Shown here piece after piece: positions 5,194 to 22,056 of a stretch of DNA of 35,867 nucleotides; the first letter of the stretch is position 1; each line of letters starts with the position of its first letter. The notes beneath the pieces were generated by a model. The model made no database searches. It saw only the letters and a program-made list of their open reading frames with translations, and was not told where the DNA came from. Source of the stretch: Pedobacter sp. HMWF019 (GTDB lineage Bacteria; Bacteroidota; Bacteroidia; Sphingobacteriales; Sphingobacteriaceae). Position numbers and translations under genes: made by a program. Location: positions 1-35,867 of the forward strand of contig NZ_QAIL01000133.1 of assembly GCF_003061025.1 (NCBI RefSeq), given 5' to 3'.

Positions 5194-6951
5194 ATGCTTA
5201 TGACCAAAAAACGAAAAATGTCTGGAATATGGAAATGGATCATTGTCTCCTTTCTGTCTCTGTTTCTGCTTGTCGGAGCAGCTGTTATGTATTTTAGTGT
5301 TAAATGGAAACCACGAATTACTAAAAGGATCAAGACGGAAGTATACAATGGGTCACATCATTTATATAAAATAGATTTTAAAGACATTCATTTAAATATA
5401 CTCCTTGGAAATGTAACGCTGGATACCCTTACACTGATACCGGATACCGCTGAATTTCGTATGTTAAGAGACTATGGTCTGGCCCCTTCCAACATCTTCC
5501 AGGTAAAGCTGGCCCACCTCAAGATTTCGGGAGTATCCATACTGAAAGCCTATTTTAAAAAGAAAATAGATATTTCCAGTATTCTTCTGGACCAGCCGTC
5601 TGTGCATATGATCCATAATGATGTGGCAAGGAAGAAGAAAGAAGAAGGACCCTCTCTGTTTGAGATGCTTTCGGGAACATTTAAATCTGTGCATGTAGGA
5701 CAAATTAAGATGAACAATGCTGATATAGACTATATCAGCGGAACCAATTGGGAGAAACTGCATCAGATCAGACATTTCAATCTTAGGGTAGAAGATTTGT
5801 TGCTGGATTCTGCTTCCAGACATGACCCAGCCCGATTTTATTATGCAAAAGATGTCGCGTTTGAACTGTTTGGTTACAGCGCACTCAGTAAAGATAAAAT
5901 GTATACGATGAAGATAGATACCCTTCGGGGTTCTGCTACTGGTGGAATGCTGAAAATCAGGGGGCTTAAAATGATTCCAATGTATTCGGAGCTGGAGTTT
6001 ACACGCAAATATAAAGTACAAAAAGACCGTTATAACCTGGACTTTTCTGCCCTGGATTTTAAAGGGCTTAATTTTACCCGGCTGGATGACGAAGGCCGGC
6101 TACATGCCAGTTCTCTCCAGATAGGTCCTGGAAAAGCAGCCGTCTTTATGAACCGGGAACTTCCGCCTCCTTCTTTTGATAAAGGAAGGAATTATCCGCA
6201 CATTGCCCTTCAGCGTTTGCCTTTGCAGTTGTTGATTGATACGGTACAGCTGGACCATATAGATGTAGCCTATACGGAGTACAACCCCATTGCCAAAGAA
6301 AAGGGAACTGTCAAACTGGACCATTTGCACGGACAATTGCTCAACATCACCAACGACACATTGCAATTGCCTAAAAAAAATCATGCCTATGCTGATCTGC
6401 GCACAAGAATTATGAAAGCGGCCGATCTGCATGTAAAAATTGATTTTAACCTTGAGGATAAGAATGGCGCTTTTCACTATTCAGGTAATGTTGGTCCGAT
6501 GGATATGGTCGCGCTAAATCCTTTGGCTAAATCGCTTGGACTGGTTAAAATTGAGCAGGGGAAAGTGCAGAAAGCTGATTTTGATATTCAGGCCAATCTT
6601 CAGGGCTCAAAGGGAACGATGCACTTTTACTACAAAGACCTTAAAGTTTCTTTACTTAAAGAAGGAGAGGACGGCGCGCCGGCTAAGAAAAGGGGTTTTT
6701 TATCCTTTTTGGCGAATAAACTGGTGATCATTGACGCCAACCCTTCTGAGGGTAAAGCCCTTCGGACTGCAAATATTGTTTTTCAGCGCAGTCCGGCAGC
6801 TTCTTTTTTTAATTTGCTCTGGAAAGGTGTTTTTGTGGGCATGCGAGAGACTATAGGAATAGGGATGGTGGAAGTCAAAAGTCCGGAAAAAGCCTATGAG
6901 AAAGTCAAAGAAAAAAAGAAACAACGTCTGGAAAAGAAAACAAAAGGCTAG
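5194..6951 (+). CDS. AsmA-like membrane-anchored protein, first tandem paralog
   Basis: A 585-residue protein with one N-terminal membrane anchor (residues 10-31, IWKWIIVSFLSLFLLVGAAVMYF) and a large beta-rich remainder with repeated amphipathic strands (HLYKIDFKDIHLNILLGNVTLDTLTLIPD; LQIGPGKAAVF). This is the pattern of the AsmA/DUF748 superfamily of envelope proteins, some of which bridge lipids across the periplasm. The C-terminus has a conserved block RGFLSFLANKLVI ... SFFNLLWKGVFVGMRETIGI and then a Lys-rich tail. It is clearly paralogous to the next gene, which starts 60 nt downstream. An alternative ATG is at 5200. Substrate and partners cannot be read from sequence. Confidence 0.8.
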   Translation: MLMTKKRKMSGIWKWIIVSFLSLFLLVGAAVMYFSVKWKPRITKRIKTEVYNGSHHLYKIDFKDIHLNILLGNVTLDTLTLIPDTAEFRMLRDYGLAPSNIFQVKLAHLKISGVSILKAYFKKKIDISSILLDQPSVHMIHNDVARKKKEEGPSLFEMLSGTFKSVHVGQIKMNNADIDYISGTNWEKLHQIRHFNLRVEDLLLDSASRHDPARFYYAKDVAFELFGYSALSKDKMYTMKIDTLRGSATGGMLKIRGLKMIPMYSELEFTRKYKVQKDRYNLDFSALDFKGLNFTRLDDEGRLHASSLQIGPGKAAVFMNRELPPPSFDKGRNYPHIALQRLPLQLLIDTVQLDHIDVAYTEYNPIAKEKGTVKLDHLHGQLLNITNDTLQLPKKNHAYADLRTRIMKAADLHVKIDFNLEDKNGAFHYSGNVGPMDMVALNPLAKSLGLVKIEQGKVQKADFDIQANLQGSKGTMHFYYKDLKVSLLKEGEDGAPAKKRGFLSFLANKLVIIDANPSEGKALRTANIVFQRSPAASFFNLLWKGVFVGMRETIGIGMVEVKSPEKAYEKVKEKKKQRLEKKTKG

Positions 6952-7011
6952 AGGCCTGGCGTATTCTGTATGGATAAAATTGTATCTTAGAAAAGATATT
7001 TGCCTTAACAA

Positions 7012-8814
7012 ATGCCAGATCAGATCACTAAGAAATTCAATAGCGTTAAATGGATGGCCCTGGTGGCACTGGTTGTCTTTCTGGTTTTTGGAACGGGATT
7101 TATATATTTTGAACTCCGTATTAAACCCTTGATCGAACAGGAACTCCGTGAGCTCGTACCTCGTTCAACTGAAGGGCTGTATCATCTTGATTTTACGGGT
7201 CTAAGTATCAATCTTCTGACGGCTAACGCCAGCCTCTCTAATGTTAAACTTATTCCAGATCCGATAGTACTGGAGAAACTTCGGCTTTTAAAAAAGGCGC
7301 CAAATAATGTGTATCATATAGAACTCCGAAAATTGTCTGCACTGAATTTTCATTTGTTCAGAATGTTCAAAGATAAAAAGCTGAATATAGATGAGATAGA
7401 AATTAACCGGCCTATGATCACCATGGTGAACCGTCAGATGGATTATAACGAAAACAGGGCTCCAAGGCCACTGAAATCGCCTTATGATTATATCTCGAAA
7501 GTTCTGAAAGAATTGAGTGTAGATACGGTGAATTTCCGGGAGGCTGCTTTCAAATATGTAGATAACAACAAGGCAAAGCCAATAATAGACTCCATTGCCA
7601 ACCTGAATGTTACGCTTGCGGACTGGCTGATCGACAAGGACTCTGCAAGAGATACCACCAGGATGTACCTCCTTAAAGACATCATGCTCAATCTTGATGA
7701 TTATTCCTATGCCACCCCCGATAGTCTCTACAATATTCACCTTTCGGAAATGAATTTCAAGGCCTCGACCGGATTGCTTCATATAGATAAATTTGAGTTA
7801 CTGCCCAGATACAGCGAAATGCAATTTGGTCAAAAGGTGGGATACGCCAAAGACAGATACAGTATCCGGATGAACGATCTTCAGCTGGCCGGAATTAATT
7901 TGCCACTGTATATCAAGAAGCAGGAGCTGTTTGCCAGACAGATGAGTATTGGCGACGGCGCAGTTTCTGTATTTAACAACAATGAGCTGGAAAAGCCAAA
8001 GGAACCTAAAACAGGGAAGTATCCGCACCAGCTTTTGCAGAAGGTGGGCAGTAAGATCACGATCCAGAAACTGGACCTTTATCACCTGAATATCGCTTAC
8101 GCGGAGTTTGACCGCAACAGCAAGCAAAAAGGAAAGATCACTTTTGAAAATACTTCTGGAACCATTACCAACATTACCAATGCTCCGGCCGCAAAGCAAA
8201 AGAACAAATTTATGGTTGCAGACCTGACCACTTACATGATGGGACAAGGAAAGTTAGATACAAAATTTACCTTTGATCTATTGGCCGAAGATGGAGCTTT
8301 TGCTTATTCAGGCCTTCTTCATGGATTGAACGGGCCGGCAATGAATGCTGTAACCAAGCCTCTGGGGATGGTCCATATCAAAAGTGGTGTAGTTGATGAA
8401 CTGAGTTTTGACTTGAAAGCAGATGAGCATGGTGCATCCGGAAGTATGGTTTTTAAGTACCACGATCTGGCTATTGCGGTCCTGAAGCGGGAAGCTGGTA
8501 CAGTCTGGCTGATCCGGCAGGGTTTTCTATCCTTTCTGGCCAACAATCTGATTATCAATCCGCAGAATCCAAGTAAAGAGGGAATACTCAGTAAAGCCGT
8601 CATTGACTATAAGCGTGCACCAGACCGCTCTTTCTTCAATCTGATCTGGAAATCGCTATTCCAGGGCATTAAATATAGTGTTGGCGTTACCCCTCAAAAG
8701 GAAGCGCAAATCAAGGCCCAGGTCGCACGATTTGAAAAAATGAAAACAGAAAGAGACAAGCGTAGGGCAAACCGCCAGAAAAGAAGAGCGCAACGGAAAC
8801 AGGAGCATAACTGA
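7012..8814 (+). CDS. AsmA-like membrane-anchored protein, second tandem paralog
   Basis: A 600-residue protein with the same plan as its upstream neighbour: membrane anchor at residues 12-33 (WMALVALVVFLVFGTGFIYF), a beta-rich body (GLYHLDFTGLSINLLTANASLSNVKLIPD aligns to HHLYKIDFKDIHLNILLGNVTLDTLTLIPD), the C-terminal block QGFLSFLANNLII ... SFFNLIWKSLFQGIKYSVGV, and a strongly basic tail (KRRANRQKRRAQRKQ). The similarity shows a tandem duplication with substantial divergence. The two genes share orientation and have no terminator between them, so they are probably cotranscribed. The stop codon is embedded in a perfect palindrome acting as terminator. Most likely an inner-membrane-anchored periplasmic protein of envelope lipid homeostasis; exact function unknown. 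Confidence 0.8.
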   Translation: MPDQITKKFNSVKWMALVALVVFLVFGTGFIYFELRIKPLIEQELRELVPRSTEGLYHLDFTGLSINLLTANASLSNVKLIPDPIVLEKLRLLKKAPNNVYHIELRKLSALNFHLFRMFKDKKLNIDEIEINRPMITMVNRQMDYNENRAPRPLKSPYDYISKVLKELSVDTVNFREAAFKYVDNNKAKPIIDSIANLNVTLADWLIDKDSARDTTRMYLLKDIMLNLDDYSYATPDSLYNIHLSEMNFKASTGLLHIDKFELLPRYSEMQFGQKVGYAKDRYSIRMNDLQLAGINLPLYIKKQELFARQMSIGDGAVSVFNNNELEKPKEPKTGKYPHQLLQKVGSKITIQKLDLYHLNIAYAEFDRNSKQKGKITFENTSGTITNITNAPAAKQKNKFMVADLTTYMMGQGKLDTKFTFDLLAEDGAFAYSGLLHGLNGPAMNAVTKPLGMVHIKSGVVDELSFDLKADEHGASGSMVFKYHDLAIAVLKREAGTVWLIRQGFLSFLANNLIINPQNPSKEGILSKAVIDYKRAPDRSFFNLIWKSLFQGIKYSVGVTPQKEAQIKAQVARFEKMKTERDKRRANRQKRRAQRKQEHN

Positions 8815-14649: not shown

Positions 14650-15831
14650 ATGTCCTTATCAGATTTTTTTTCTCCTTTAAGCCTTGATAAAATCACGCCT
14701 AAACCGGGATTTTATACCAGTCAGCTGGGATTAAAGGCCAGTTTTTACACTGATGAATTTCCTGAACTGGAAGAAAACAGTTATGATATTGCCATTATAG
14801 GTGTACTGGACGACCGGGCTGCGGTAAACAACAATGGTTGCGCACTTGGTCCGGATTATTTCAGGGCACAATTCTATCTGCTCCATGAAGGCGATTTTAC
14901 CAGTAAGATCGTTGACTTGGGAAACATTAAAGCCGGTGCCAATATTTCTGATACCTATATCGCCCTCAAAATGGTGGTGGCTGAACTGATCAAACTTCAC
15001 ATCTTACCTGTCATTATTGGTGGTGGACAAGACCTGACCTATGCGCAATATATGGCTTATGAAGCCCTGGAGCAAAAAGTAGACCTCGTGGTGGTTGATA
15101 ACCGCTTTGACCTGGATGAAGATGATCATGAAGGAATAGAAGCGCGCTCTGATACCTATCTCAACAAGATCTTCTTACATCAGCCGAACTACTTGTTCAA
15201 TTTCAGCAATATCGGCTATCAGACCTACTTTGTGAATCAGGACAGCCTTAGGGTAATGAACAAGCTTTATTTTGATGTACACCGGCTGGGAGAATTCTCT
15301 GAAGACATTAGTCCGGCAGAGCCCATCATCAGAAACGCCAATATGCTCAGCTTTGATCTTTCTGCCATTCGGTCTTCTGATGCAGGAGCCAATGCCAATG
15401 CAGGACCTAATGGTTTCTATGGAGAACAGGCCTGCAGGATCACCAGGTATGCTGGTATGAACGATAAACTCACTTCGATCGGTTTCTATGAATTTAATCC
15501 GGCCTTTGACAATAATGGACAAAGTGCAATGCTGCTGGCACAAATGGTTTGGTATTTTGTAGATGGTTATTATAACCGGAAAAAAGATTTTCCTTTAACA
15601 CCCAAATCCCAGTATCTGATCTACAGAACCAGTCTGAACGAAGGACCAGGAGAAATGCTTTTTGTAAAAAGTAAGAAATCAGATCGTTGGTGGATGCAGG
15701 TTCCTTATCCCAGCGGGGTTTCCAAAAATGAACGCTACCATCTGATACCATGCCGTTACGAAGATTATAATACCGCGGTTAATGGCGAAGTTCCTGACCT
15801 CTGGTGGCGGACCTATCAAAAGCTACTGTAA
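14650..15831 (+). CDS. Ureohydrolase-fold (formimidoylglutamase-like) protein with incomplete metal site
   Basis: A 393-residue protein of the arginase/agmatinase/formimidoylglutamase fold. The three metal motifs are in the right places but altered. GGGHD is GGGQD (Q127 for His), DAHxD is DNRFD (D150, R152 for His, D154), and DxDxxDP is DLSAIRS (D236, S238 for Asp). Three of the six dimanganese ligands are therefore non-ligating residues. The rest of the core is well kept (IAIIGVLDDRAAVNNNGCALGPDYFR; NANAGPNGFYGEQACRITRYAG). Homologues I recall from Bacteroidota also carry GGGQD and DxRFD, suggesting an inherited pseudoenzyme rather than recent decay. Databases usually label it formimidoylglutamase; real function unknown. 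No histidine-degradation genes are nearby. Confidence 0.85.
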   Translation: MSLSDFFSPLSLDKITPKPGFYTSQLGLKASFYTDEFPELEENSYDIAIIGVLDDRAAVNNNGCALGPDYFRAQFYLLHEGDFTSKIVDLGNIKAGANISDTYIALKMVVAELIKLHILPVIIGGGQDLTYAQYMAYEALEQKVDLVVVDNRFDLDEDDHEGIEARSDTYLNKIFLHQPNYLFNFSNIGYQTYFVNQDSLRVMNKLYFDVHRLGEFSEDISPAEPIIRNANMLSFDLSAIRSSDAGANANAGPNGFYGEQACRITRYAGMNDKLTSIGFYEFNPAFDNNGQSAMLLAQMVWYFVDGYYNRKKDFPLTPKSQYLIYRTSLNEGPGEMLFVKSKKSDRWWMQVPYPSGVSKNERYHLIPCRYEDYNTAVNGEVPDLWWRTYQKLL

Positions 15832-17079: not shown

Positions 17080-17121
17080 AAATAAAAAATGCTATCTGAT
17101 TTCAGATAGCATTTTTTATTT
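17080..17121. terminator. Bidirectional terminator between TlpA-like and NRPS genes
   Basis: Arms 17080-17099 and 17102-17121 are perfect 20-bp reverse complements with a GCTATCTGA core, and each strand ends in a T-rich run. The stop codon of the minus-strand NRPS gene (17120-17122) overlaps the base of the stem, so both converging genes use one structure. Confidence 0.9.
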
Positions 17122-20100
17122 ATACAGGTTTTACCGGGCTGCCTGTCCAGGAGGTTCCGGGAGCCAGGACTTCTCCTTTCATCACCAGCGAGAGGGGCTC
17201 CAGTTTAACATCATTGCCAATCTCGCTGTCGTATAGAATAATACTGCGTGCGCCTATGCTTGTTCTTGCCCCTATTTTTACAGGACCTACTTTCATAACG
17301 CGGTCTTCAAATAAATGCGTCTGTGGTCCGCAATCTTCATTTAGTGCAGAATCATCCCCAATACTGACCATGTCATATTCGGTCACGTCGGTAGTGTTCA
17401 TCCAGACCCGTTTTCCTGTTTTTACTCCAAGTAAACGAAGGGCAAGAGGGAGCCATGGGGTTCCTTTCAGATATTCCAGCAGGAAAGGAACAGACAAGGC
17501 CTCGTAAGTTGAAGTAATGGCTTCACTGCGCCAAACTTCCCATGTCCACATTGGGCTTTGTTTCACTTTGTATTTTCCTACAAAGAGCCATTTAAAGATC
17601 ACGGTGACTAAAAAGGCTGGAAGCCCCATAAGACCAAGATAATAGAAAGGAAAGAGCAATAGAACTTTCCATAATGGTTTTTGGGTGATCAGATCATGCC
17701 CAAGGGCAATAAATAAAATACTGAAGCAAATGATGGCTGTTTCTGGTGTAATGATCCGGATAAACTCTGTAATTGTTCTGGCCATTTTTCTTGGAAACGA
17801 AGGCGTGGTGGTCAGCTCATCGGGGAAAGGATTGCTTTCCTGACGACGTGGCAATGCAATAGCTGGTGAACCAAACCAATCCTTAGCATTTGAGCCGGCA
17901 AGTTGCTCCTGATCAGGCGGCGTAGACAATACCCCAATCAGCATATTTCCCGGCAGGTGATAACCCTGTGGGATGAGTGCACTATTCCCAACAAAGCTTT
18001 TACTTTCTATAATGGTTTTGTCGAGAATGAGCTGCTGTCCGCGGACATCAGATTCACCGAGAGTTACTGCGTCGGCTACAAAGGCCCCATCGCCGATCTC
18101 AAGTAAAGGGTGTGTCACATTACTGGCGGTTGAAATTTCTGTATTTTTACCCACTTTTGCCCCCAATAACCTGAAAAAAGGCGCCACGAAAACGGTGGCA
18201 TAGATGGGGTGCATTACAATAAGACTCAAAGACATCAATTGGTCTGCCAGCCATTTACGAACATAGAAGCCACTGTAAACAGAATGTTTCCCCGGCTTAA
18301 TGCCATGCTGCAACAATCTGGTGACTGCTATGGTTTCAAACGCATATAAAATGATATAAGAAATGGCCAGCAGGGGTACGGTGATCATATAATTGAAATT
18401 ATAGTCTGGTGCAGCATCATCCATCGCATTTAAAACCAATATGGTAGGTAACAGGGGTAATAAAATGATGACAGGAAAAAGGATCAGCAGTACAGTAAAG
18501 ATAAAACTATACAGGCTACGTTTGGCTGCAGTGACCAGTAGGGGCTGAGGAAGTTCTTCCAAAGTCCTGGTTTCTTTAAGCTGGGCCGGACTACCTTTCC
18601 AGACCTCACGGGCACCTATTTTTTGCCCGGACTGCAAGTGGCTCAAGTCCTGGAGTTCTCCCCATTCCTCTACGGAAGCATCGGCAGAAATAATGGCACT
18701 GCTGCCAATATAGGCATGATCTCCAATATGAATGCTGCGGATTTTCAGCCAACCGTCTTCTACAACCGCATTATTAAAAATTACCTGCGAACTGATGCTG
18801 ACATCTTCCCCTATGGTGAGCAGATCTTCTGCACCAATGGTGAGCGAACTGAGTTGTGCAGTGGGGGCCACTTTAACACCAAGCATACGTAGATAAACCG
18901 GATAGATTGGCGTTCCGTTCATAAACTGGGTAGGAATTAAAGCTTGTATAGTTTTAACAAACCACCAGCGGAAATAATAAGTTCCCCAAAGCGGATAATC
19001 CCCTGCACGGATCTTCCCAATGACCAGGCGTTTCACCAGAATACTCAGGGAAGTGAAAAAGGGTGGAATCAGGCAATAAAGTCCTAGTGCAGTAACAATT
19101 CCATAGGATAATTTCTCTGTACTTTCGCGTACATAATAATAGCCCAGATAAGGCACAAAGATTTGTATGGCAAACAGCCCGTAGATGAGCAACAGGGAAA
19201 TGCTCTGTGCAAACCAGCAGATCAGGTACCTCCATTGTGGTATTTTGTTGAAGATACTTTGCTTTGGAGGCGCTTGTTGTGGTACCGATTCCCATACTTT
19301 AACCAGGCTGCTGAGTGGGCGGTGTGTGTAAACGTCTTTTAATGAAGCATAAGGGATGTTACAATCGTTGCGAAGCTTGGAAATAAAGGCAGCCGCCAAA
19401 AGGGAATGTCCACCCAGGTCTGTAAAAAAATCAAGGTCGAGGCTGATGTCTCTGCCCGGAAAAGTTTTCCTGAGCATAGCGAGTACCCGGTCTGGCAATG
19501 GGGCATTCACATCCAGTGTCTCTCCGGAAAGGTCTGCCGGTGTACTTAACATGGCCTCGGGTACGGGAAGAGCCTTCCTATTCACTTTTCCGCTCGGCAT
19601 CCGTGGCATTTCTGAGAGAAGGGCTATAGTACCCGGAACCATATAAGGTGGCAGGAATTTGGCCAGTTCGAGCCTGATCAGCGCATCATCTAAATTGATG
19701 GTGCCATCGGGAACGAGGTAACCTACCAGCTGATCCTGGTCATTGCTGTCTTTTTTTACGGCTACAGCAGCGGCAGATACACCTTGAAGGGCATTTAAAC
19801 GGCTTTCAATTTCTCCCAGTTCGATCCGGTAGCCCCTGAGTTTGATCTGATCATCCAGGCGGCCAAGAAAGTCAATACTTCCGTCGGTATTGATGGTGGC
19901 GGCATCGCCGGTACGATAAATCCGATCTCCAGGCATCAGGGCCAGGGGCTCTGGTTTATTCAAAAACTTCTCTGCGGTAAGTTCCGGAAGGTTTACGTAG
20001 CCATTGGAGACGCCCGGACCGGAGATCACCAATTCCCCGCGTTCCCCAAGTGGTACGGGGTTGTATTGCTCATCGACAACCGCAAGTCCGTAATTGGGAA

Positions 20101-21079
20101 TAGGCAGTCCTATGGTAATGTTATCACCTGGGCGCAATTCAGCCATTGTAGCCGATACGGTTGTTTCGGTAGGTCCGTAACTGTTGAAAAATCTTCTGGA
20201 AGGCGTTGCCCATCGGGCCAATACCTGTGGCGTACAAGCTTCTCCGCCGGCATTGATGAGCCGTATCGAGGGAACGGTGTCTTCTATGACGGCCAGCAAG
20301 CTGGGTACCGCATGAAGGATAGTGATGCCCTGCGTACGCAGCGTATCACTGAGTTCATCAATGGCCTTTGAAGTCGTATTGTCGGCTATCCAAAGCGTAG
20401 CCCCGGCTAGGTAGCTTACCCAGGTTTCCTCACACCACATGTCAAAGGATACAGAGAAACCCTGGTATACTTTGTCGGTGGACAGGATATTGAAAATATA
20501 TTGTTCGGCACGTACCAGATGACAGATCTGGCGGTGTGTAATGGGAATTCCTTTAGGTTTTCCGGTGCTGCCGGAGGTATACAGTACATAAGCATCATCA
20601 TCAGGCCCGGCACCATCACTCGCAACTGTTGCTACACTTTTCTCTGCCCCTGGCTGGGGAACTTCTAACTGTAAACAGCTGGCATTGATCTGATGCTCGC
20701 AAAAACAGGCTGATGCACCTACCTCACTCATCACCAGTTCCACTCGTTCTGCTGGCATTTCCCGGTCTAAGGGAACATAAGCTGCCCCAGCTTTGATGAT
20801 ACCCAGGATAGCCACATGCAATTCTATGCCACGAGGCCACCAGATGCCTACTTTAGCCCCTTTTCCAATACCCTGCTGGTTTAAAAATTGGGCGACAGCA
20901 TCACTCCACTGATCCAGTTCAGCGTAGGAAAGGGAAATTTGGTTAAAAATCAACGCTGTGTGCTGCGCATGTTTTTTAGCTGTTTCCCGAAACAGATCTG
21001 CCAGGGTTTCCTCGCGAAGAATTTCCGGTTTTAAAGGTCCGGTAACCATACTCACAGGCATCATACAATATGCGTTCAT
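17120..21079 (-). CDS. Pls/PosA-type NRPS: A-PCP with six-TM tandem beta-helix ligase region
   Basis: A 1319-residue single-module synthetase. Adenylation domain (about 20-510): A3 YTSGSTGKPKG (167-177), A5 NSYGPTET (299-306), A7 YRTGD, A8 GRLDDQIKLRGYRIELGE (406-423), A10 lysine K498. Carrier domain: Ser559 in DLGGHSL is the phosphopantetheine site. There is no standard condensation or thioesterase domain. Instead, six membrane helices (about 618-645, 655-685, 853-885, 896-918, 1112-1130, 1137-1162) alternate with three left-handed beta-helix modules (about 734-830, 972-1052, 1217-1312). This is the layout of epsilon-poly-L-lysine synthetase, where the tandem membrane domains join free amino acids into an isopeptide polymer. 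Predicted selectivity residues are D213, M214, E217, H256, I275, A277, S300, V308, S309, K498. A PPTase gene lies divergently 132 bp away. The amino acid used is not certain. Confidence 0.92.
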   Translation of the reverse strand: MNAYCMMPVSMVTGPLKPEILREETLADLFRETAKKHAQHTALIFNQISLSYAELDQWSDAVAQFLNQQGIGKGAKVGIWWPRGIELHVAILGIIKAGAAYVPLDREMPAERVELVMSEVGASACFCEHQINASCLQLEVPQPGAEKSVATVASDGAGPDDDAYVLYTSGSTGKPKGIPITHRQICHLVRAEQYIFNILSTDKVYQGFSVSFDMWCEETWVSYLAGATLWIADNTTSKAIDELSDTLRTQGITILHAVPSLLAVIEDTVPSIRLINAGGEACTPQVLARWATPSRRFFNSYGPTETTVSATMAELRPGDNITIGLPIPNYGLAVVDEQYNPVPLGERGELVISGPGVSNGYVNLPELTAEKFLNKPEPLALMPGDRIYRTGDAATINTDGSIDFLGRLDDQIKLRGYRIELGEIESRLNALQGVSAAAVAVKKDSNDQDQLVGYLVPDGTINLDDALIRLELAKFLPPYMVPGTIALLSEMPRMPSGKVNRKALPVPEAMLSTPADLSGETLDVNAPLPDRVLAMLRKTFPGRDISLDLDFFTDLGGHSLLAAAFISKLRNDCNIPYASLKDVYTHRPLSSLVKVWESVPQQAPPKQSIFNKIPQWRYLICWFAQSISLLLIYGLFAIQIFVPYLGYYYVRESTEKLSYGIVTALGLYCLIPPFFTSLSILVKRLVIGKIRAGDYPLWGTYYFRWWFVKTIQALIPTQFMNGTPIYPVYLRMLGVKVAPTAQLSSLTIGAEDLLTIGEDVSISSQVIFNNAVVEDGWLKIRSIHIGDHAYIGSSAIISADASVEEWGELQDLSHLQSGQKIGAREVWKGSPAQLKETRTLEELPQPLLVTAAKRSLYSFIFTVLLILFPVIILLPLLPTILVLNAMDDAAPDYNFNYMITVPLLAISYIILYAFETIAVTRLLQHGIKPGKHSVYSGFYVRKWLADQLMSLSLIVMHPIYATVFVAPFFRLLGAKVGKNTEISTASNVTHPLLEIGDGAFVADAVTLGESDVRGQQLILDKTIIESKSFVGNSALIPQGYHLPGNMLIGVLSTPPDQEQLAGSNAKDWFGSPAIALPRRQESNPFPDELTTTPSFPRKMARTITEFIRIITPETAIICFSILFIALGHDLITQKPLWKVLLLFPFYYLGLMGLPAFLVTVIFKWLFVGKYKVKQSPMWTWEVWRSEAITSTYEALSVPFLLEYLKGTPWLPLALRLLGVKTGKRVWMNTTDVTEYDMVSIGDDSALNEDCGPQTHLFEDRVMKVGPVKIGARTSIGARSIILYDSEIGNDVKLEPLSLVMKGEVLAPGTSWTGSPVKPV

Positions 21080-21134
21080 TTAGATAGAAAAATAGAGGAA
21101 GTGGCAGCCGCCTCTACGAAGTACCAAAATACAT

Positions 21135-21170
21135 TATTTTTGTGAAGTGTTTGATGTCTTTTCTAAAGAC
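21135..21170 (+). promoter_or_regulatory. Putative PPTase promoter element and leader hairpin
   Basis: TATTTTTG (21135-21142) matches TAnnTTTG exactly, though no TTTG is visible at -33. Just downstream, GTCTTT (21156-21161) and AAAGAC (21165-21170) form a 6-bp stem with a 3-nt loop that would lie near the 5' end of the transcript. The 132-bp spacer must also hold the NRPS promoter, for which I see no clear match. Confidence 0.35.
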
Positions 21171-21211
21171 GGAAGCTAACTGGCATATATAGAGCGTTAA
21201 ATAATAAAAAT

Positions 21212-21862
21212 GTGACCGGAAAGGATCAGAATAAAAGAATTTATATTTATTTCAGCGAATGCAAGGTGGAGAAATCTGAGGTCCGTTTTGAGGCGAAGAT
21301 GGAGCAGCTGCCTGTCGGTATGCAGGAAGAAATCAGGGCGTATCATTCCCCGCAAGATCGGGCATTAAAGCTGGGCGGACGGTTGCTGCTGAAAAAAATA
21401 CTGGAGGATCTGAATCAACCCCATTCACTTTCTACCATGCAGCATGGTCTCTATGGCAGGCCTTTTTTTGATGGTGATTTTCAGTTCAATATATCTCATT
21501 CCGGAGACCGGGTAATTTGCGCTGCACAGATGGGTGGAGATCTTGGGGCCGATTTGGAAAAGGTCATTCCCGTTGATCTGAAGGATTATACTAACTATTT
21601 TACAACAGAAGAATGGGTAGAAATCTATCGTGGTCCGGATCAAAATGCCTGTTTTTTCAGTGCCTGGTCTAAAAAGGAAGCTTTTTTAAAAGCAACTGGA
21701 ATGGGGGTTCAATTGCCATTGGATAAAGTCAATGCTATTGGAAGCCATTTTCGGTATGAGGGCAGGTCGTATTACTTTCACCGGGTAGATATTGATTCAG
21801 AGTATCCTTGCTGGTTAGCAAGCAGTATTGCGTTTCCTGAAATCGTGCTTAAGAGAAGGTAG
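21212..21862 (+). CDS. Sfp-type 4'-phosphopantetheinyl transferase
   Basis: A 216-residue PPTase. The conserved signatures are FNISHSGDRVICA (residues 92-104), GADLEKV with magnesium ligands D114 and E116, and W152-S-K-K-E156-AFLK160-ATGMG. It transfers the phosphopantetheine arm of CoA to a carrier-protein serine, here most plausibly Ser559 of the divergent NRPS. The start is a GTG at 21212; an ATG one register earlier (21210) is followed immediately by a stop. The length fits the smaller Sfp-type family. It might also serve the fatty-acid acyl carrier protein, but adjacency to the only NRPS in the window argues for a dedicated partner. Confidence 0.93.
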   Translation: MTGKDQNKRIYIYFSECKVEKSEVRFEAKMEQLPVGMQEEIRAYHSPQDRALKLGGRLLLKKILEDLNQPHSLSTMQHGLYGRPFFDGDFQFNISHSGDRVICAAQMGGDLGADLEKVIPVDLKDYTNYFTTEEWVEIYRGPDQNACFFSAWSKKEAFLKATGMGVQLPLDKVNAIGSHFRYEGRSYYFHRVDIDSEYPCWLASSIAFPEIVLKRR

Positions 21863-21928: not shown

Positions 21929-22056
21929 GTCCTGGTTTATATTGACTCCAGAATTAGTGCCTGATTAGAGCAGAGTAAGTCCGGGTTTTTGCGGAAAAAC
22001 CCGGACTTACTCCGGACTCAGACCGGACTCACTCCGCTAGGAATATAAACCAAGAC
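21929..22056. repeat. 128-bp nested palindrome between PPTase and purD
   Basis: Two inverted repeats share one centre (21992.5). Outer arms 21929-21943 and 22042-22056 pair over 15 bp with one mismatch (TGGTTTATATT / AATATAAACCA core). Inner arms 21973-21990 and 21995-22012 form a perfect 18-bp stem with a GCGG loop. The right inner arm continues into 11-bp tandem repeats beginning CCGGACT (22001-22033). No coding potential is evident. It could be a miniature inverted-repeat element, a structured RNA, or an elaborate terminator of the PPTase gene. No target-site duplication is obvious. Confidence 0.75.

Follow-up and report, generated by a model that had tools for sequence, protein, structure and literature searches.

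A Pls/PosA-family synthetase gene of Pedobacter sp. HMWF019 with a PosA-like substrate pocket and an adjoining phosphopantetheinyl transferase gene

By the account of the authors who described PosA, cationic isopeptide homopolymers were known from actinomycetes only before the Acinetobacter enzyme; homologues in many bacterial phyla are already reported in the same article (PMC10522769). Two described systems are relevant here. Pls, the epsilon-poly-L-lysine synthetase of Streptomyces albulus, has the domain order A, T, C1-C3 with six transmembrane helices (PMC8117764). PosA of Acinetobacter baumannii, a delta-poly-L-ornithine synthetase (PDB 8G95-8G98), has three transmembrane helix pairs and three left-handed beta-helices and yields 7-12-mers in vitro (Patel and Gulick, PMC10522769). 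The substrate of PosA is contacted by Asp217, Met218, Glu221, Thr304 and Ser313; Met218 has been proposed to determine the chain length of the substrate, and the exchange M218A raised the efficiency with lysine nearly ten-fold (PMC10522769). At this second position of the pocket, alanine is reported for lysine enzymes and phenylalanine for diaminopropionate and diaminobutyrate enzymes (PMC10522769).

Here we describe a locus of Pedobacter sp. HMWF019 on a stretch of 35,867 nucleotides that was analysed at its full length (the window). It consists of a synthetase gene and a divergently transcribed 4'-phosphopantetheinyl transferase (PPTase) gene (Table 1). With a probability of roughly 0.78, we read it as encoding a PosA-subtype homopolymer synthetase, bound to the membrane, whose Ser559 is loaded by the PPTase and whose product is delta-poly-L-ornithine.

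Table 1. Features of the synthetase locus (positions in the window)
Feature	Position	Strand	Details and basis
Pls/PosA-family synthetase, A-PCP-terminal domain	17120..21079	-	1319 aa; TIGR02353, PosA-like pocket
Adenylation domain, residues 30-504	19568..20992	-	PF00501, PF13193, TIGR01733; closest single-domain structure PosA 8g95-8g98
Peptidyl carrier domain, residues 541-593, Ser559	19301..19459	-	PF00550, GGHS motif, carrier-fold matches
Membrane-type terminal (polymerisation) domain, residues 624-1316	17132..19210	-	TIGR02353, AlphaFold2 model, hydropathy
His1255, candidate catalytic residue, third repeat	17315..17317	-	conservation in aligned members
Intergenic region, synthetase/PPTase, 132 bp	21080..21211	.	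between two divergently transcribed genes
Sfp/AASDHPPT-type 4'-phosphopantetheinyl transferase, 216 aa, probable synthetase partner	21212..21862	+	PF01648, PF22624, recurring adjacency

Domain order and terminal domain of the synthetase

By its profile matches, the synthetase is a member of the known Pls/PosA family. The original prediction had assigned the C-terminal region to this family and staked the assignment on a comparison with the family model: TIGR02353 ('Pls/PosA family non-ribosomal peptide synthetase') matches with 656.2 bits, far above its cut-off of 423.1, and residues 624-1316 cover model positions 2-695 of 695. Eight TIGR02353 matches are present in the host genome (6.9 Mb), and only the window synthetase is above the cut-off. 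The adenylation match (TIGR01733, residues 51-439, 393.5 bits, cut-off 317.4) is followed by a PP-binding match (PF00550, residues 541-593, 24.6 bits, cut-off 20.8), in which the serine of the GGHS motif is Ser559. At E<=0.001, Pfam gives five matches (AMP-binding, the AMP-binding C-terminal part, PP-binding, two beta-helix families); condensation and thioesterase models are absent from the list. With the TIGR and Pfam profiles, the predicted arrangement of one A domain, one PCP and neither condensation nor thioesterase domain holds in coordinates, strand and domain order.

The terminal domain was modelled with AlphaFold2 (residues 520-1319, 42 aligned sequences, model residue + 519 = protein residue; mean pLDDT 84.2, pTM 0.86). 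The model has three repeats, each of them a pair of long helices followed by a beta-helix: the six long helices span residues 615-654, 657-687 (with a short break), 851-889, 901-923, 1095-1133 and 1136-1167, and the beta-helix stretches lie at about 746-837, 993-1069 and 1238-1312. This agrees with the six membrane helices interleaved with three beta-helix modules that had been read from the letters, six being a model-based count because hydropathy places hydrophobic segments at all six modelled helices and adds a seventh of like strength at residues 947-972, a region modelled as portions of shorter helices and not as a long one. The modelled layout also fits the published architecture of PosA. 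Searched with Foldseek, the model retrieves beta-helix proteins (gamma-carbonic-anhydrase-like subunits, acetyltransferases, LpxD) at low TM-scores, which support the fold only. A PDB sequence search with the terminal domain gave only short beta-helix matches; a second list of fold matches was filled by carrier-domain matches to the N-terminal part of the model and is uninformative on the terminal domain.

Conservation narrows the polymerisation site: an alignment of 37 members, near and far relatives, has 28 invariant positions (37/37) within residues 600-1319, among them Arg704, Trp706, Asp1003, Asn1032, Arg1101, Glu1186, Thr1207, Glu1234, Gln1253 and His1255. In this alignment, and in another of 21 members, His1255 is the sole invariant histidine of that range, and it lies in the third repeat. 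We propose that the third repeat, with His1255, may house the site at which the amine attacks the ornithyl thioester. In the full sequence of events, the adjoining PPTase would put phosphopantetheine on Ser559, and the adenylation domain would activate L-ornithine with ATP and load it onto the Ser559 arm. The terminal domain would then couple the thioester to a delta (side-chain) amine, either of a second ornithine or of the chain being built; by repeating this step without condensation or thioesterase domains it would make a short cationic isopeptide, delta-poly-L-ornithine.

Substrate pocket and its variation among relatives

When the nine variable pocket positions are aligned on PosA, the window reads DMEHNGSVS and PosA DMEHNGTVS (8/9 identical). 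The counterparts of PosA Asp217, Met218, Glu221 and Ser313 are Asp213, Met214, Glu217 and Ser309, all identical; at the position of Thr304, the window has Ser300, which keeps the hydroxyl in a different residue. Serine is the usual residue at this position: it is found in 99 of 104 distinct Bacteroidota rows (window included), with threonine in three and two rows unread. Pocket position 2 is Met214, and the alanine reported for lysine enzymes is absent from the window. The closest single-domain solved structure to the window adenylation domain is PosA (8g95-8g98), with 357 bits versus 302 for the epsilon-poly-lysine enzyme (7wew) and, in the pocket region, 154 versus 94; multi-domain chains, for example gramicidin synthetase, outscore PosA in total because two domains match. 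As the pocket is one position away from that of PosA, we predict delta-poly-ornithine, not epsilon-poly-lysine. The likeness to the Streptomyces epsilon-poly-lysine synthetase in the original prediction stands for the domain order, but the adenylation domain is nearer to PosA and lacks the lysine-type alanine. A homopolymer of one amino acid is the best reading of the sequence, with the monomer narrowed by the pocket to, probably, ornithine.

Of 395 genomes sampled from the phylum, 6 carry a TIGR02353 match above the cut-off; the corresponding figures are 32 of 301 for the family and 23 of 145 for the genus. Five of the six pockets from the phylum scan are ornithine-type and one is lysine-like, and all pockets that were read in the family scan are ornithine-type (31/31, of 32). 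The genus scan, which is free of bait sequences, gave 21 readable pockets of 23, 13 ornithine-type and 8 lysine-like, and the genus is therefore not uniformly ornithine-type. A scan of contigs kept 80 of 282 relatives; relatives with titles are chiefly from Mucilaginibacter, Chitinophaga and Pedobacter, with many further Bacteroidota assemblies. Removal of 11 duplicates from 115 rows left 104 distinct Bacteroidota synthetases, window included, four of them without a whole pocket. The 100 pockets that could be read are DMEHNGSVT (77), DMEHNGSVS (18), DMEHNGTVT (2), DMESNGSVS (2) and DAESIGTVI (1). The pattern D-M-E-x-N-G-[ST]-V-[ST] is present in 99 of these 100 (window included), a set that says little on other pocket types because it was mostly found with close relatives as bait; the family-model scans are the fairer sample.

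The two Bacteroidota members with DMESNGSVS (L143, L145) have Ser, not His, at pocket position 4. A second Pls/PosA type was seen in eight Pedobacter genomes (L232-L239): its frames of 1497-1518 residues are about 36-37% identical to the window protein and have the pocket DAESIGTVI, lysine-like by the position-2 rule. These proteins are ~180 residues longer, and a fused PPTase was considered and rejected: the extra part is N-terminal and, in the one protein tested, weakly resembles the end of a condensation domain (last fifth of PF00668, E 1.2e-4, 21.4 bits, cut-off 30.6). Among four plasmid members with a phenylalanine pocket, two (Streptomyces sp. NBC_01527, Skermanella) have an adjoining diaminobutyrate transaminase gene, in line with the position-2 rule; none is listed in the fetched stretches for Phe-pocket Rhodococcus and Phyllobacterium.

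Three other explanations of the locus were weighed. That it is a decayed or silent gene without a product would suit its patchy presence (23/145 genus genomes) and is nevertheless very hard to credit: the frame is intact across the family model, and it retains the carrier serine, the pocket and, in the adenylation domain, the PSGK lysine, whose role we presume. A synthetase of the same kind may instead use another diamino acid (lysine, diaminobutyrate) or a mixture and make a different cationic isopeptide; PosA was crystallised also with L-lysine and with D-ornithine, its authors stress the degeneracy of pocket codes (PMC10522769), and the window has Ser at the Thr304 position. We regard this as unlikely, though worth keeping in mind, given the methionine that the window shares with PosA at position 2, where lysine enzymes have Ala and diaminopropionate/diaminobutyrate enzymes Phe (PMC10522769), and given the eight lysine-like members of the genus, which combine Ala at position 2 with a different pocket.

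The Foldseek matches, weak and informative on the fold only, include left-handed beta-helix acetyltransferases and the acyl-carrier-dependent LpxD and would be compatible with a beta-helix domain acting as N-acyltransferase, in an enzyme that passes one or a few ornithines from the carrier to a different amine, for instance on a membrane lipid or a cell-surface acceptor. Such a transfer is distinctly improbable, as 7-12-mers are the in vitro product of PosA (PMC10522769), whose domain order is the same and whose pocket is nearly so. We thus prefer the synthesis of delta-poly-L-ornithine by a PosA-subtype enzyme; by analogy, the biological role of the polymer may be antifungal or at the surface or in biofilms.

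The PPTase gene and the chromosomal context

The PPTase gene had been predicted as Sfp-type, 132 bp from the synthetase on the opposite strand, and both the gap and the divergent orientation hold. Its product matches PF01648 with 39.8 bits (cut-off 25) and PF22624 with 33.4 bits (cut-off 27). It is not the sole candidate for loading the synthetase, since the host genome has five PF01648 matches, four besides the window PPTase. Two other contigs of the host genome hold condensation-domain matches, and on both of them there is a PF01648 match as well.

Linkage was counted in 80 distinct loci, window included, whose synthetase is flanked by 1.2 kb or more on either side: 18 have the PPTase family next to the synthetase, 15 of them divergent and upstream as in the window and three downstream on the same strand, and the other 62 lack it there. 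Wherever the family is found, it directly adjoins the synthetase (22/22 loci, of 111 with duplicates still included). Clustering would miss distant PPTases: of four loci examined from other Bacteroidota families, three (L149, L150, L151) have a PPTase match no more than 0.7 kb from the synthetase but outside the window PPTase cluster, and the stretch of the fourth (L152) lacks one. A tree of 47 PPTase rows places every linked Bacteroidota row (22, with duplicates) in one branch of 25 (95/92), in a sample that is uneven because most unlinked rows were chosen by similarity to the window PPTase and L153 and L157, two of the five PF01648 matches of the host genome, were left out. The three unlinked rows of this branch are from genomes that also carry a synthetase; outside it are 20 other rows from synthetase carriers (two of them the same gene) and the linked PPTases of Sphingomonas and Rhizobium. 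Whole-genome searches of 31 carriers found six without a match to the window PPTase at E<=1e-6. The recurring adjacency and the largely separate branch favour the 'dedicated PPTase' of the original prediction, but the dedication is not strict, with the family missing beside the synthetase in 62/80 loci.

Synthetase and PPTase occupy the joint between tlpA and purD, which are about 5.25 kb apart in the window. Of 29 congener loci, nine show purD no more than 1.3 kb from tlpA, five of these within 200 bases; the other 20 stretches end too early or have no visible purD, and one of them (L162) shows a synthetase. The ends of the tlpA and purD matches are 77, 195 and 83 bases apart in L192, L193 and L194. 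G703, the genome of L192, has a synthetase on a different contig; the 23 synthetase carriers of the genus do not include G281 and G224. The nearest relative, Pedobacter G702, has a synthetase that is 82% identical at the same tlpA/purD joint, and in the PPTase position it has open frames of 133 and 460 residues instead (L191:9906-11713). The 460-residue frame resembles, by eye, what we take to be a secreted non-specific endonuclease. In a quick tree, the window and G702 group with mostly Mucilaginibacter genes (95), and a second lineage comprises P. steynii, P. caeni and others; a constraint uniting six Pedobacter rows was rejected (p-AU 1.3e-5). To account for the Pedobacter synthetases, one must assume two or more entries, or else an ancient duplication followed by losses. 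No mobile element came to notice at the locus. Between PPTase and purD (window 21970-22040), inspection by eye showed an inverted repeat, AAGTCCGGGTTTTTGCGGAAAAACCCGGACTT, with CCGGACTCA-like words recurring after it.

An arginase-family gene (14650-15831), whose end is some 1.3 kb away from the 3' end of the synthetase gene, was considered as an ornithine supplier. This was rejected: the gene lies beside the same tlpA in 27 of 29 congener loci, some of them without a synthetase there, and it is absent from the other 110 synthetase loci compared; G702 has it because G702 shares the tlpA/purD joint. Its nearness to the synthetase is ordinary synteny. Further pathway genes were likewise rejected, as no window gene besides synthetase and PPTase recurs in any of the other 110 loci; neighbours conserved elsewhere (transglutaminase-like, SpoU methylase, sigma factor) are found in subsets of loci and are absent from the window. 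The lack of a degrading or exporting gene beside the synthetase, as predicted, was borne out: the Pfam-scanned neighbours include no recognisable gene for export, degradation or immunity. Two adjoining proteins of 585 and 600 residues (window 5194-8814) form one similarity cluster and have no Pfam match at E<=1e-5.

Ten Chitinophaga loci (L079, L082, L083, L084, L088, L095, L096, L098, L099, L100) have a GNAT gene 3' of the synthetase at a median gap of 20 bp (Pfam scan of the L083 copy); elsewhere, a GNAT gene comes after the PPTase in Sphingomonas (L223), and another after the synthetase in Phyllobacterium (L229). A shared GNAT-based self-protection was rejected, as the Chitinophaga GNAT has no similarity to the Sphingomonas and Phyllobacterium GNATs; a search of the Chitinophaga GNAT against the host genome, run without a positive control, gave no match. 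It is possible that GNAT genes serve in self-protection or polymer capping.

Comparison with known systems

What this analysis adds is the predicted ornithine assignment, the Bacteroidota clade, the PPTase linkage and the insertion joint. Among the matches listed from the open-licence literature, we found no description of a Bacteroidota polymer or synthetase of this kind and no biochemical work on a Bacteroidota member. Tentatively, and with somewhat less than even confidence, we suggest that the Bacteroidota hold a large clade of delta-poly-ornithine synthetases that spread sideways between genera, in some lineages with a specialised PPTase lineage as a self-sufficient unit, and that polymerise at one third-repeat site around His1255. 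If true, about a hundred distinct synthetases with ornithine-type pockets would make such polymers a Bacteroidota trait, open to testing in named strains of Pedobacter steynii, P. caeni and species of Chitinophaga and Mucilaginibacter.

The window synthetase shares with PosA the domain order, the TIGR02353-type terminal domain and eight of nine pocket residues, and it is 39% identical overall to PosA of A. baumannii VB958, a copy that contains the 8g95 fragment letter for letter. It differs from PosA in Ser300 for Thr304 and in its adjoining PPTase gene, whereas no PPTase is listed in the 11-kb stretch examined of the Acinetobacter posA locus. Pls has the same domain order as the window, but its adenylation domain is less similar than that of PosA, and the window has Met in place of the Ala of lysine enzymes. 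On plasmids of Sphingomonas parapaucimobilis (pocket DMEHNGTVT) and Rhizobium sp. CCGE532 (pocket DLEDIGTVV), the Pls/PosA gene adjoins a PPTase gene as in the window; these pairs are co-directional, whereas the window pair is divergent.
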